IMG/VR virus record: IMGVR_UViG_3300036766_000229 | Span: 1 to 35,889 of that record | Strand: one strand, 5' to 3' | DNA from: a virus | Length of the DNA: 35,889 bases | In this document: positions 2-33,112 of the stretch, one piece after another | How the letters are laid out: each line of letters starts with the position of its first letter | How positions within the stretch are numbered: the first letter of the stretch is position 1 | The notes under the pieces: model-generated | Databases searched by the model: none | Told to the model about the DNA's origin: nothing | The model's input: the letters and a program-made list of their open reading frames with translations, nothing else | Made by a program: the position numbers and the translations under genes

Positions 2-400
2 CATAGAGTCGTCTGGCTCGACCATCACGCTTGCTTTTATTGTGGGATGAACTTATGGGACGCTTTGCACCATATCATCAGCCCGTCCTTCTACCTCTAC
101 ATAGACGGCAAGCACAATGAAAGCATCCTGAACTCTGCTCCGATACACAATTTCAAACATCCTGACGCAGTAGGTGAGATCGAGAATTGCCATATTGGAA
201 ATGAGGCTTGGCTCTACAAGGAGGAGAATATCTCGATGCTCCTTAAGTTGGTCTACCAAACCTTGACCGAGAACTATGGCTACCAAATAAAGCCTTTGGA
301 TATAGACTTTCTGACCAAGTATTACTATCTCTACGGGGAGGATTTCTTCAAGGAAAACCCCGTTATTTCTTATCCACAGGCTGTCATAGAAACCCCTTGA
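2..400 (+). CDS. HNH-type nuclease-like protein, 5' end beyond the window edge
   Basis: The frame is open from base 2. A start at ATG 47 is possible, but the codons before it read as real protein (HRVVWLDHHACFYCG), so the true start is probably upstream. If the window is circular, the frame continues back to an ATG at 35864 and gives a 141-residue protein. A CxxC pair, a following DALHHI segment, and a later Asn...CHIGN segment match the order of Cys, His and Asn residues in small phage HNH endonucleases. Phage HNH nucleases often lie near the terminase genes and help DNA packaging or recombination. The TGA stop lies inside the -35 box of promoter P1. The family call is from motif order only. 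Confidence 0.55.
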   Translation, partial: HRVVWLDHHACFYCGMNLWDALHHIISPSFYLYIDGKHNESILNSAPIHNFKHPDAVGEIENCHIGNEAWLYKEENISMLLKLVYQTLTENYGYQIKPLDIDFLTKYYYLYGEDFFKENPVISYPQAVIETP

Positions 401-425
401 CTTCGTTTACTACGTTTACTAATAT
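370..425 (+). promoter_or_regulatory. Promoter P1 with upstream TTATCCACA box and tandem 9-mers
   Basis: TTGACT lies at 397-402 and TAATAT at 420-425, with a 17-base spacer. The spacer holds two tandem copies of CGTTTACTA (405-422). A perfect TTATCCACA box (identical to the DnaA-box consensus) is at 370-378, inside the end of the preceding gene. The core is shared with three other promoters in the window (1674, 28064, 33084). It should start transcription near 432, just before the boxA-like element, and serve the HTH gene. Confidence 0.8.
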
Positions 426-436
426 AGAGACAGGAG

Positions 437-450
437 GTTCTTTGAAAACT
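437..450 (+). promoter_or_regulatory. boxA-like transcription antitermination element
   Basis: The 14 bases GTTCTTTGAAAACT match the boxA sequence of Gram-positive rRNA operon leaders, which recruits NusB/NusE to make RNA polymerase resistant to termination. It sits only a few bases downstream of the predicted start of transcription from P1, as in lambda nut sites. No boxB hairpin was recognised beside it. Confidence 0.55.
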
Positions 451-458
451 GAATAGGG
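438..458 (+). repeat. Left copy of a perfect 21-bp inverted repeat
   Basis: These 21 bases are the exact reverse complement of 867-887. The pair brackets two small genes (474-614 and 616-855). The flanking bases are also partly complementary. The left copy contains the boxA-like element. It could be the terminal repeat of a small element or one arm of a long-range RNA stem. Confidence 0.9.
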
Positions 459-473
459 GTAACAAAATCTATC

Positions 474-614
474 ATGCGTAAACTTTCAGGCGAACAAGTC
501 GCAAAAATTAAAACTCTACACCAAGAGGGTGAGAGCGAAAGAGCCATCGCAAAGGCGGTCGGTTGTTCTCGAAGTGCGGTGTGGTATCAGTTGAAGAAAG
601 CTAAACTCGTCTAG
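474..614 (+). CDS. Small helix-turn-helix DNA-binding protein
   Basis: A 46-residue protein that is almost entirely one helix-turn-helix. Residues 18-42 (EGESERAIAKAVGCSRSAVW) match the resolvase/homeodomain-like HTH pattern, with the turn at VGCS and the recognition helix RSAVWYQLKK. It probably binds DNA as a regulator. It is the first gene after promoter P1 and is separated by one base from the next ORF. The start ATG 474 gives a basic N-terminus; there is no good ribosome binding site at the normal distance. It has no catalytic domain, so it is not a full resolvase or transposase. Its operator may be the tandem 9-mers in the four related promoters, which is speculation. Confidence 0.75.
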   Translation: MRKLSGEQVAKIKTLHQEGESERAIAKAVGCSRSAVWYQLKKAKLV

Positions 615-1179: not shown

Positions 1180-1677
1180 ATGAGAGCCGTTAAAGTCATT
1201 CTTGGAGGGGTTGTGGTATTCTTCGCGGTCTACCTGATTCAAACTTGGTTGGGTTCTGCTTTGGGCCAAGCAGAGAGTTTCGCAATTTGGTGGCTCCTTG
1301 TCTTGGCCTCGATAGAAGAAGTAGGCAAACTCTCACCCGTCTTCTTCCTCAATAAAGAGGTTGGCAGGTATGACTTGATGAAATATGCGGTGTTGAGTGC
1401 GTGGACTTTGGCTGTAATAGAGACCTTCTTCTTTGAGTGGGGGGCGTTGTCTGACGGTCAAGGGTTCAATTGGGTGAGGCCTATTCTGGCCGTAAATGTT
1501 CACGTTGTGGCCACCCTGATAGCTTCAAGTTATTGGACTAGAAATAGACGGTTCGCCGATCTCCTCAAAGGGCTTCTAATAGCCGTGTTGGTACATACTT
1601 TATTCAACATCATTGTTATCAATTGGGTAGAGATTATCCACAGCTTTATCCCCAATTTTGTCCACAAAATCTCTTGA
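1180..1677 (+). CDS. PrsW/CPBP-like intramembrane protease candidate
   Basis: 165 residues with about five hydrophobic segments. Inside membrane segments lie EEVGK (residues 46-50, an EExxK motif), a Glu at 81, His108 and HTLFN (139-143, HxxxN). This order of EExxK, Glu, His and HxxxN is that of PrsW and related CAAX/bacteriocin-processing intramembrane proteases. PrsW cleaves anti-sigma factors in the host membrane. A phage copy could alter host envelope signalling, process a host membrane protein, or exclude other phages. It is shorter than typical PrsW (about 200-300 aa). The 3' end of the gene also holds the operator boxes of promoter P2, and its TGA stop is part of the -35 box. Confidence 0.55.
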   Translation: MRAVKVILGGVVVFFAVYLIQTWLGSALGQAESFAIWWLLVLASIEEVGKLSPVFFLNKEVGRYDLMKYAVLSAWTLAVIETFFFEWGALSDGQGFNWVRPILAVNVHVVATLIASSYWTRNRRFADLLKGLLIAVLVHTLFNIIVINWVEIIHSFIPNFVHKIS

Positions 1678-1702
1678 CTTCGTTTGCTAGGCTTACTAGA
1701 CT
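1634..1702 (+). promoter_or_regulatory. Promoter P2 with three TTATCCACA-like boxes
   Basis: TTGACT is at 1674-1679 and TAGACT at 1697-1702, with a 17-base spacer containing CGTTTGCTA followed by GGCTTACTA. Upstream boxes are TTATCCACA (1634-1642), TTATCCCCA (1647-1655) and TTGTCCACA (1658-1666), spaced about one to two helical turns, all within the coding end of the preceding gene. The core matches P1, P3 and P4. Transcription should begin near 1709 and run through the structured leader at 1717-1812. Confidence 0.8.
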
Positions 1703-3600: not shown

Positions 3601-3903
3601 ATGGAAGAAATCAAAGAAATCATTCTCACGATGGTTAAGAGCATAACCAAATACCCCGACGATGTTGTCTTAAACATCCAAGAGATTCAGGACGCTGAGC
3701 GCGGCGAGGTCGTCCAAATCAATATCAAGGTTAATACCGAGGACATCCCCTCTTGCATTGGCTCGGGTGGCAGTACGGCCGAGGCAATCAGACGCGTGGC
3801 TATCCTGACGGGGAAACGCATCCGCTTCCCAAAGTCCCTATTTATCCGAGTGGATGCGCCAGAGTTGCCGAAGAATCATTTCAACTTCAATGAGCGACAA
3901 TAA
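3601..3903 (+). CDS. KH-domain RNA-binding protein, KhpA-like
   Basis: 100 residues, close to the usual 75-100 of bacterial KhpA (YlqC). The N-terminal VKSITKYPDDV segment and the GSGG loop (residues 54-57, within SCIGSGGSTAEAIRRV) followed by a GKRIRFP strand match a type II KH domain, which binds single-stranded RNA. In bacteria KhpA pairs with KhpB/Jag to bind many RNAs. It sits directly upstream of the terminase genes, at the head of the structural transcription unit. Its last 14 bases overlap the next gene. Phage copies are unusual. Confidence 0.7.
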   Translation: MEEIKEIILTMVKSITKYPDDVVLNIQEIQDAERGEVVQINIKVNTEDIPSCIGSGGSTAEAIRRVAILTGKRIRFPKSLFIRVDAPELPKNHFNFNERQ

Positions 3904-5996: not shown

Positions 5997-6002
5997 TATA
6001 AT
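5997..6002 (+). promoter_or_regulatory. -10-like TATAAT box 7 bases before the portal ATG
   Basis: TATAAT just after the terminase stop, with seven bases between it and ATG 6010. If used as a -10 box, transcription would begin within one or two bases of the start codon. No -35 match. Confidence 0.45.
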
Positions 6003-26133: not shown

Positions 26134-27599
<1,466 letters not shown>

Positions 27600-27603
<4 letters not shown>

Positions 27604-27782
27604 ACGAGTTTGACTGCGACTGCTCGGAGCGTGGTAATCCTCTTGCCTTTGACTCTCGGCTCTTTCTTAAAGATTCGGCAACCTCTGACCATTGCGGTGG
27701 GATGGGAAGTGGCGACAACGCGGTACTCCAACTCATAGGGATAAGGGATGTCTGTGGAAACCTTTACTAAAAATGTGGTCAT
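27600..27782 (-). CDS. Small basic protein upstream of the metalloprotease
   Basis: 60 residues, basic, starting MTTFLVKVSTDIPYPYELEY, with an RVVATSHPTA strand. Its stop overlaps the metalloprotease start, so the two form a minus-strand operon. The fold may be a small ferredoxin-like or RNA-binding unit, but no family was recognised. Confidence 0.55.
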
Positions 27783-27841
27783 CTGTTTTGTGGTTAAGCG
27801 GTGGCCTGATTGCCCTCGCTGTATCTATTTTAACATTTTGA
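27773..27841 (+). CDS. Possible 22-aa membrane peptide
   Basis: The + strand frame MWSSVLWLSGGLIALAVSIL... is a single hydrophobic helix ending TGA 27839. Its ATG overlaps the start of the minus-strand operon. It is too short to be sure of. Confidence 0.2.
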   Translation: MWSSVLWLSGGLIALAVSILTF

Positions 27842-28035
27842 CAAGCGTTTGTAAAAATTGTGTGATAAAATTACGACTTGTGGTGGCTTAATAGAGCCGT
27901 TAAAAATGGATGATTGAGTGCAACTGTGTCAGAAAGTCGCTCAACCAACCAGACCCTTGACACAAAGTTGTATAATGTTGTCGCAGGAATAAGGCTTAAA
28001 AAGATTTTTTGATGATTTTTCCGTTATCCACATCC
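27837..28035. promoter_or_regulatory. Non-coding control region, divergent promoters or possible origin
   Basis: The 315-base gap 27783-28097 has no larger gene. It holds TTGACA (27837) with a weak TGTGAT 17 bases on, and TATAAT (27971). An inverted repeat pairs TGTGTCA (27925-27931) with TGACACA (27958-27964). A T-rich stretch (28000-28020) is followed by a perfect TTATCCACA box (28024-28032). An AT-rich tract beside a DnaA-type box, next to the recombination block, would suit an origin, but only one such box is present. Confidence 0.45.
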
Positions 28036-28091
28036 TCTCAACAGTTTTGTCCTATAATCTAGCTTGACTTCGCTTACTCCGTTTATATACT
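28024..28091 (+). promoter_or_regulatory. Promoter P3 with TTATCCACA box
   Basis: TTGACT is at 28064-28069 and TATACT at 28086-28091 (16-base spacer) with the shared CGCTTACTC/CGTTTATAT 9-mer pair between. TTATCCACA is at 28024 and a weaker TTGTCCTAT at 28047. The -10 ends six bases before ATG 28098, predicting a leaderless mRNA for the recombination block. Confidence 0.8.
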
Positions 28092-28097
28092 AAGGAT

Positions 28098-28349
28098 ATG
28101 AAAGTCTCTGACATTAAGAGGAAGATTATTTCTCTTGAGAGCGACAAGCTCTATAGCATTGATGACATTATGAAAATGGGTCTGATTGTCGATGGCAGTC
28201 TGCAACCTGCCCGTTGGCGCGTCTACCGCCTCATCCGAAGTAAGGAACTGGAAGGAGTGAACATGGGCAAAGGCTACAACTCTCGGTGGTTCGTGAAAGG
28301 CAAACATCTGAGGGCATACGTTTCTAAGTTGTTGAGATTACCGATTTAG
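28098..28349 (+). CDS. Small DNA-binding (HTH) protein, probable
   Basis: 83 residues. A segment LYSIDDIMKMGLIVDGSLQP followed by RWRVYRLIRSKELEGVNMG resembles the winged-HTH of excisionase/MerR-type phage proteins, with a Gly-Tyr-Asn wing. The C-terminus is basic. It is the first gene after promoter P3 and may regulate the recombination block. Confidence 0.6.
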   Translation: MKVSDIKRKIISLESDKLYSIDDIMKMGLIVDGSLQPARWRVYRLIRSKELEGVNMGKGYNSRWFVKGKHLRAYVSKLLRLPI

Positions 28350-32827: not shown

Positions 32828-33082
32828 ATGAAAACTAAACTCCAAGAGATACGAGAGAAGCGTGGGGCTTACGAACGCAAGAGACGCAAGAAGTTCTTGC
32901 TGATGAGTGGGGATGAACTGGCCCATAGGCGCAGTATTGCCGCTCAAATCGCCAAAGGGAAGAAGCGAGTGATGCCGAGAGACTTCAAGGTGGACGTTAT
33001 CGGCTACGACAAGCCCAACTTCCTGACCCGAGCTATCAACAGATTTAAGACCCTTCTCCACAGGTTTGTCCCCACTTCTTAG
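32828..33082 (+). CDS. Small basic protein, 84 aa
   Basis: Very basic N-terminal half (KLQEIREKRGAYERKRRKKF), which suggests nucleic-acid binding. The start is ATG 32828, after the previous stop. Its 3' end contains the operator boxes of promoter P4. Confidence 0.6.
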   Translation: MKTKLQEIREKRGAYERKRRKKFLLMSGDELAHRRSIAAQIAKGKKRVMPRDFKVDVIGYDKPNFLTRAINRFKTLLHRFVPTS

Positions 33083-33112
33083 TTTGACTTCGTTTGCTGG
33101 GTTTACTAAAAT
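33054..33112 (+). promoter_or_regulatory. Promoter P4 with degenerate TTATCCACA boxes
   Basis: TTGACT is at 33084-33089 and TAAAAT at 33107-33112 (17-base spacer) with CGTTTGCTG/GGTTTACTA between. TTCTCCACA (33054) and TTGTCCCCA (33066) lie upstream, twelve bases apart. The core matches P1, P2 and P3. It serves the gene at 33143. Confidence 0.78.

Follow-up and report, generated by a model that had tools for sequence, protein, structure and literature searches.

The best-documented case that we found of DnaA acting on a phage promoter is lambda pR, which is stimulated by this replication initiator in E. coli (PMC3698200, PMC3985674), and DnaA boxes are also present in the promoter regions of the bacterial dnaA, sda and gcrA genes, where they serve gene control (PMC8203912). 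Another kind of promoter element, direct repeats of 9 bp, is bound by BldC, a member of the MerR superfamily, which oligomerises on them head-to-tail (PMC5859096). The rRNA-type boxA, in turn, has been described in extra-ribosomal positions, between a promoter and a non-rRNA gene such as suhB or a ParE-like toxin gene (PMC5725501).

In this work we present an analysis of a whole IMG/VR virus record of 35,889 bp (hereafter the window), which carries a tailed-phage gene set (terminase, portal, capsid, tape measure and an M23 peptidase-like protein) and four copies of one predicted promoter module, each preceded by boxes of the DnaA type. The likeness to lambda pR is that the replication initiator of the host would modulate a promoter of the phage, DnaA binding being in our case predicted from the boxes. 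The DnaA-footprinted boxes of lambda, however, lie downstream of pO near the origin, whereas the tandem arrays of the present phage stand immediately upstream of the −35 element and are repeated at four promoters. DnaA-responsive phage promoters are already known, and it is in its arrangement that the four-promoter version differs. In the case of dnaA, sda and gcrA the boxes occupy promoter regions as well, but there the controlled genes are those of the host, while here they would belong to a regulon of the phage, whose promoters hold a repeat element as a second feature.

Results and discussion

The record and its relatives

With the first 25 kb of the window as a query, no close match was found among 50,697 phage records, and a terminase query led to no close relative. 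The portal query gave a single relative (42%) on a 4.6-kb contig, and the query with the HerA-like ATPase gave relatives of 32–45%; the module is absent from all of them. The tRNA scan of the window found no tRNA, and the search for Rfam RNA families no match. From 28098 onward the DUF87/HerA-like ATPase (29836) is the sole recognisable product, which leaves unsupported the name of recombination block that an earlier, sequence-only reading of this DNA had given to that part.

Four copies of a predicted promoter core

The pattern TTGACTTCGYTTRCT has exactly four matches in the window, all on the plus strand (397, 1674, 28064 and 33084; modules 1–4, Table 1), and none on the reverse strand or in a backwards control. 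In a scan with a 25-bp weight matrix, which was built from the four module sites themselves, these sites were the best with 30–36 bits and the next one reached 13.7. The spacers between TTGACT and the −10 hexamer are 17, 17, 16 and 17 bp long in modules 1 to 4, and the shared cores with 16–17-base spacers described in the sequence-only reading are thereby borne out. Its statement that in two copies the stop codon is part of the −35 element holds as well, since TGA 398–400 (the end of the ORF upstream of module 1) and TGA 1675–1677 (the end of a PrsW-like ORF at module 2) both lie inside TTGACT.

Table 1. Positions of the promoter modules and of the elements and genes associated with them in the window
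Feature	Position	Strand	Details
Module 1 box	370–378	+	TTATCCACA; −27 from −35 start
Module 1 weak second box	381–389	+	CTGTCATAG
Module 1 promoter	397–425	+	TTGACT 397–402; 9-mers CGTTTACTA 404–412, 413–421; −10 TAATAT 420–425
rRNA-type boxA	433–458	+	GGAGGTTCTTTGAAAACTGAATAGGG; left arm of inverted pair; starts seven bases after module 1 −10
46-aa resolvase-type HTH protein	474–614	+	First gene of module 1
Inverted boxA copy	867–892	−	96% complementary; closes two-gene HTH cassette
Module 2 box array	1634–1666	+	TTATCCACA 1634, TTATCCCCA 1646, TTGTCCACA 1658; 12-bp spacing
Module 2 promoter	1674–1702	+	TTGACT; 9-mers CGTTTGCTA 1681–1689, GGCTTACTA 1690–1698; −10 TAGACT 1697–1702
Module 3 boxes	28024–28055	+	TTATCCACA 28024–28032, partial TTGTCCTAT 28047–28055
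Module 3 promoter	28064–28091	+	TTGACT; 16-bp spacer; −10 TATACT 28086–28091
83-aa MerR/excisionase-like winged-HTH protein	28098–28349	+	Candidate reader of 9-bp repeats
Module 4 boxes	33054–33074	+	TTCTCCACA 33054–33062, TTGTCCCCA 33066–33074
Module 4 promoter	33084–33112	+	TTGACT; 9-mers CGTTTGCTG 33091–33099, GGTTTACTA 33100–33108; −10 TAAAAT 33107–33112

The −35/−10 pairs of the modules are of the sigma70 type (9–10 of 12 consensus matches, spacers of 16–17), such matches alone being common in the window, and the −10 is not conserved among the four copies. Of the 25 core columns, 17 are the same in all modules, against an expectation of 1.6% for each column. The flanks (beyond 60 bp upstream and 30–130 bp downstream), by contrast, are 19–37% alike, which is the chance level. 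Segmental duplication as the origin of the four copies is ruled out by this low likeness of the flanks, and the combination of an invariant core with unrelated surroundings points to a selected operator-promoter. The four-copy module is real. Module 3 is probably leaderless, because the ATG at 28098 stands 6 bp after its −10.

Over the whole window a Shine–Dalgarno-like site was found at only 6 of 50 gene starts, and a TATAAT-like hexamer stands 3–14 nt before ATG at 15 of 49 (1.5 expected), for example at 5997, 13586, 14236, 15774, 23531 and 25226. Placed before single genes, these hexamers may act as leaderless-type promoters. Since most of them, in structural genes, have no −35 element, boxes or 9-mers, the four modules make up a distinct promoter class in this phage.

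DnaA-type boxes upstream of the core

Each core is preceded, 16–40 bp upstream, by one to three TTATCCACA-like boxes. In E. coli the sequence TTATCCACA constitutes the strong DnaA box (PMC5835720), and its three exact copies in the window (370, 1634 and 28024) are all situated upstream of a module, one at each of modules 1–3. Of the nine plus-strand TTNTCC[AC]CA sites, seven belong to the modules; on the basis of the other two alone, 0.2% of plus-strand positions have such a box 9–45 bp upstream. The clustering of DnaA consensus boxes at the modules is thus beyond chance for exact and near boxes of this strand. Measured from the start of the −35 element, the offsets are −27 in module 1, −40/−28/−16 in module 2, −40 in module 3 (plus TTGTCCTAT at −17) and −30/−18 in module 4; they cluster at −16 to −18, −27 to −30 and −40, with a spacing of about 12 bp within the arrays, and every module box is on the plus strand. 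Both the range of 16–40 bases at every module and the location of the boxes inside coding ends in three copies had been noticed from the letters of the DNA, and both agree with our measurements, the boxes of module 3 being the non-coding ones. The proposal that the blocks are coordinated is partly supported: the sequence speaks clearly for a regulon shared by four promoters that have boxes of the DnaA consensus, with host DnaA or a phage repressor as candidate readers.

A search for phage-encoded DnaA domain IV (PF08299) gave no match at E up to 10 in this record, which may be incomplete. A phage-encoded DnaA as the reader of the boxes is rejected for this record, and any DnaA reading them would be that of the host.

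Repeats in the spacer and their candidate reader

The core has a period of 9 bp (TTGACTTCG TTTACTACG TTTACTAAT in module 1), and YTTRCT-N3-YTTRCT is found only at modules 1, 2 and 4. Two tandem 9-mers had been claimed for each spacer; they are clear in these three copies, and the second one of module 3 is degenerate (CGTTTATATAC). A phage protein is a likely reader of the spacer, because RNA polymerase does not need this sequence and the full core pattern, when sought in other viral contigs, was found in none. The 9-bp repeats fit a phage-encoded operator better, and their reader need not be the same as that of the boxes.

The model of the protein encoded at 28098 is a winged HTH of low confidence (pLDDT 69.5, best Z 4.2), with MerR-superfamily chains (HiNmlR, TorI, GlnR and BldC) among its top, weak matches; an HTH_17 match of the protein falls short of the Pfam threshold, and no PDB sequence relatives were found for the 28098 and 28383 proteins. 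The likeness to the BldC family, weak and structural only on the side of the protein, would lie in the small size of a protein made up of a wHTH alone and in the presence, at promoters, of tandem direct repeats of about 9 bp (PMC5859096), whereas the phage repeat is TTTACTACG-like and that of BldC is AATTXXXXC. We treat the 28098 MerR/BldC-like protein as a lead, perhaps the reader of the 9-bp repeats. The Cox protein of phage P2 was considered as an analogue for binding to 9-bp repeats, and is likewise kept as a lead.

An rRNA-type boxA after module 1

Directly after module 1 there is an exact rRNA-type boxA (GGTTCTTTGAAAACTGAATAGGG), a feature absent from the sequence-only reading; it agrees with the published consensus if a G is accepted in place of A at one position (PMC5725501). 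A single genome_contigs record, from an Acidobacteria MAG, contains the 23-nt core of this boxA, directly ahead of a contig end, and in L225, L228 and L229, three other genomes of Acidobacteriota, an identical 18-mer of it stands upstream of 16S rRNA genes; boxA is not lineage-specific, so it is of no use in naming the host. As in the extra-ribosomal boxA genes, it stands between a promoter and a non-rRNA gene, but here it is phage-borne, located at the very start of the transcript and accompanied by an inverted copy after the cassette. The RNA across the pair can fold into a long stem enclosing both genes (z −5.7), and on the minus strand TATAAT (902–897) stands 9 nt before ATTCTTTG of the second copy. 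A possible similar convergent pair, which could be due to chance, was seen in the viral stretch L053 (3371 minus, and 2788 plus with 3 mismatches).

The rRNA-type boxA GTTCTTTGAAAACTGAATA occurs in 52 viral stretches (L045–L096), in many of them leader-like between promoter and ATG, which suggests that many phages make use of the signal by which the host antiterminates its rRNA. The boxA leader would be a second borrowed host control, one used by bacteria for rRNA.

Box–promoter pairing in other viral contigs

Two boxes followed within 4–26 bp by TTGACTT were found in 33 viral stretches, 27 of them non-redundant (near-copies merged), and a reversed-box scan of equal information gave 61 stretches, about half of them one related family; 25 are non-redundant. 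Taken together, the forward and reversed pairings amount to about 50 non-redundant viral contigs, as against 3–4 per scan by a chance estimate which is rough, being scaled from the mostly chance matches of a TTATCCACA-N8-38-TTGACTTCG scan; the 27 viral stretches found by that scan were rejected on reading as mostly chance. Among the 52 non-redundant stretches, 25 have a −10 that matches in 4/6 positions or more (20% background), and several are evident promoters, for example L119, L122, L125 and L130, which have a perfect TATAAT at 16–17 bp. Reversed boxes are as frequent as forward ones, so box orientation is free, and no directional box–promoter preference was found. Part of the excess may reflect both motifs living in intergenic DNA. 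The recurrence supports a general association of such boxes with promoter-like sequences and does not by itself prove DnaA control. With the proposed four-promoter regulon and these contigs, one can test whether the replication initiator of the host is a common means by which phages time their genes.

In a family of some 30 viral contigs (L161, L165, L178 and relatives), TGTGGATAA boxes stand not only upstream of TTGACTT but also in the spacer from −35 to −10, an arrangement in which the promoter might be blocked by DnaA or a mimic.

Explanations of the modules

The explanation that we favour, and to which we give about an even chance, is that of four co-regulated promoters, each with an upstream site for host DnaA and a 9-bp-repeat operator for a phage regulator. 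The modules would be sigma70-type promoters of one phage regulon, probably an early one. The same-strand array of TTATCCACA-like boxes (about 12 bp apart, with centres at about −48, −60 and −72 from the predicted start) would bind host DnaA, which might either help RNA polymerase to bind or tie firing to the replication state of the host. The promoter-embedded direct repeats (TTGACTTCG-TTTACTACG-TTTACTA) would be the operator of a phage-encoded regulator, for which the best candidate is the 83-aa winged-HTH protein, presumably made first from module 3; placed over the spacer, it would either repress the four promoters or retune them. The module 1 transcript, with its boxA, would be expected to recruit host Nus factors. 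Against this explanation speak the box offsets, which vary by a few bp (−16/−17/−18, −27 to −30) where a rigid activator site would hold them fixed, the lack of a conserved box orientation in other phages, whose tandem boxes are also found in large intergenic gaps, and the low confidence of the wHTH model.

It is conceivable, if somewhat unlikely, that the regulon is read by a phage protein only, encoded at 28098 or 474, with DnaA uninvolved and the 9-bp repeats, perhaps the boxes too, as its operators. Within the module, conservation is highest in the spacer core, the full core was met in none of the other viral contigs, HTH genes are headed by two of the four modules, and some of the MerR/excisionase-type wHTH proteins which the 28098 product resembles bind direct repeats. 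The boxes, however, are the strong DnaA box, and the same arrays stand beside promoters of unrelated phages without 9-mers, which points to a shared host factor. A role of the modules, or of module 3 at the least, as origins of replication or as DnaA-titration sites, at which the promoter primes or activates replication and gene control is secondary, we consider quite improbable. Module 3 does lie in the largest intergenic gap (27783–28097, 315 bp, 38% GC), between divergent genes and with a 74% A+T stretch adjoining its TTATCCACA box, and the large gaps with tandem DnaA boxes in Klebsiella phage FBKp16 and Gordonia phage Cafasso may be origins; but the four copies are dispersed, three lie in coding ends, where no A+T-rich stretch suited to unwinding was noted, every module is oriented with the downstream gene block, and conservation is centred on the promoter core, not on the boxes.

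We find it highly improbable that these are ordinary strong promoters reused by the phage, with boxes that arose by chance or coding constraint. Their −35 and −10 are near consensus, and the boxes of modules 2 and 4 are read in one codon phase, yielding C-termini that resemble each other (IIHSFIPNFVHKIS and LLHRFVPTS). The codon phase of module 1 differs, though, and the box at 28024 is non-coding, so it is as DNA that the boxes are conserved; they are, moreover, enriched at the modules, and the spacer is conserved though RNA polymerase does not need it. As for the favoured reading of host DnaA acting together with a phage regulator, its widest form seems unlikely to us: host DnaA would be a widely used phage transcriptional clock, and this regulon would read DnaA upstream, its own BldC-like protein in the spacer and an antitermination leader in the first operon.

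Other features of the record

The phage encodes a KhpA-like KH RNA-binding protein (3601–3903; PF13083, above the cut-off), and the module 2 leader (1709–1817) contains a long stable hairpin (z −3.4) that belongs to no Rfam family. On the minus strand, two overlapping leftward ORFs (27211–27782), one of them with an HEYAHH motif (weak SprT-like), point away from module 3 on the far side of the largest intergenic gap, and a leftward promoter-like site is present in this gap at 27855–27827, between the ORF pair and module 3.
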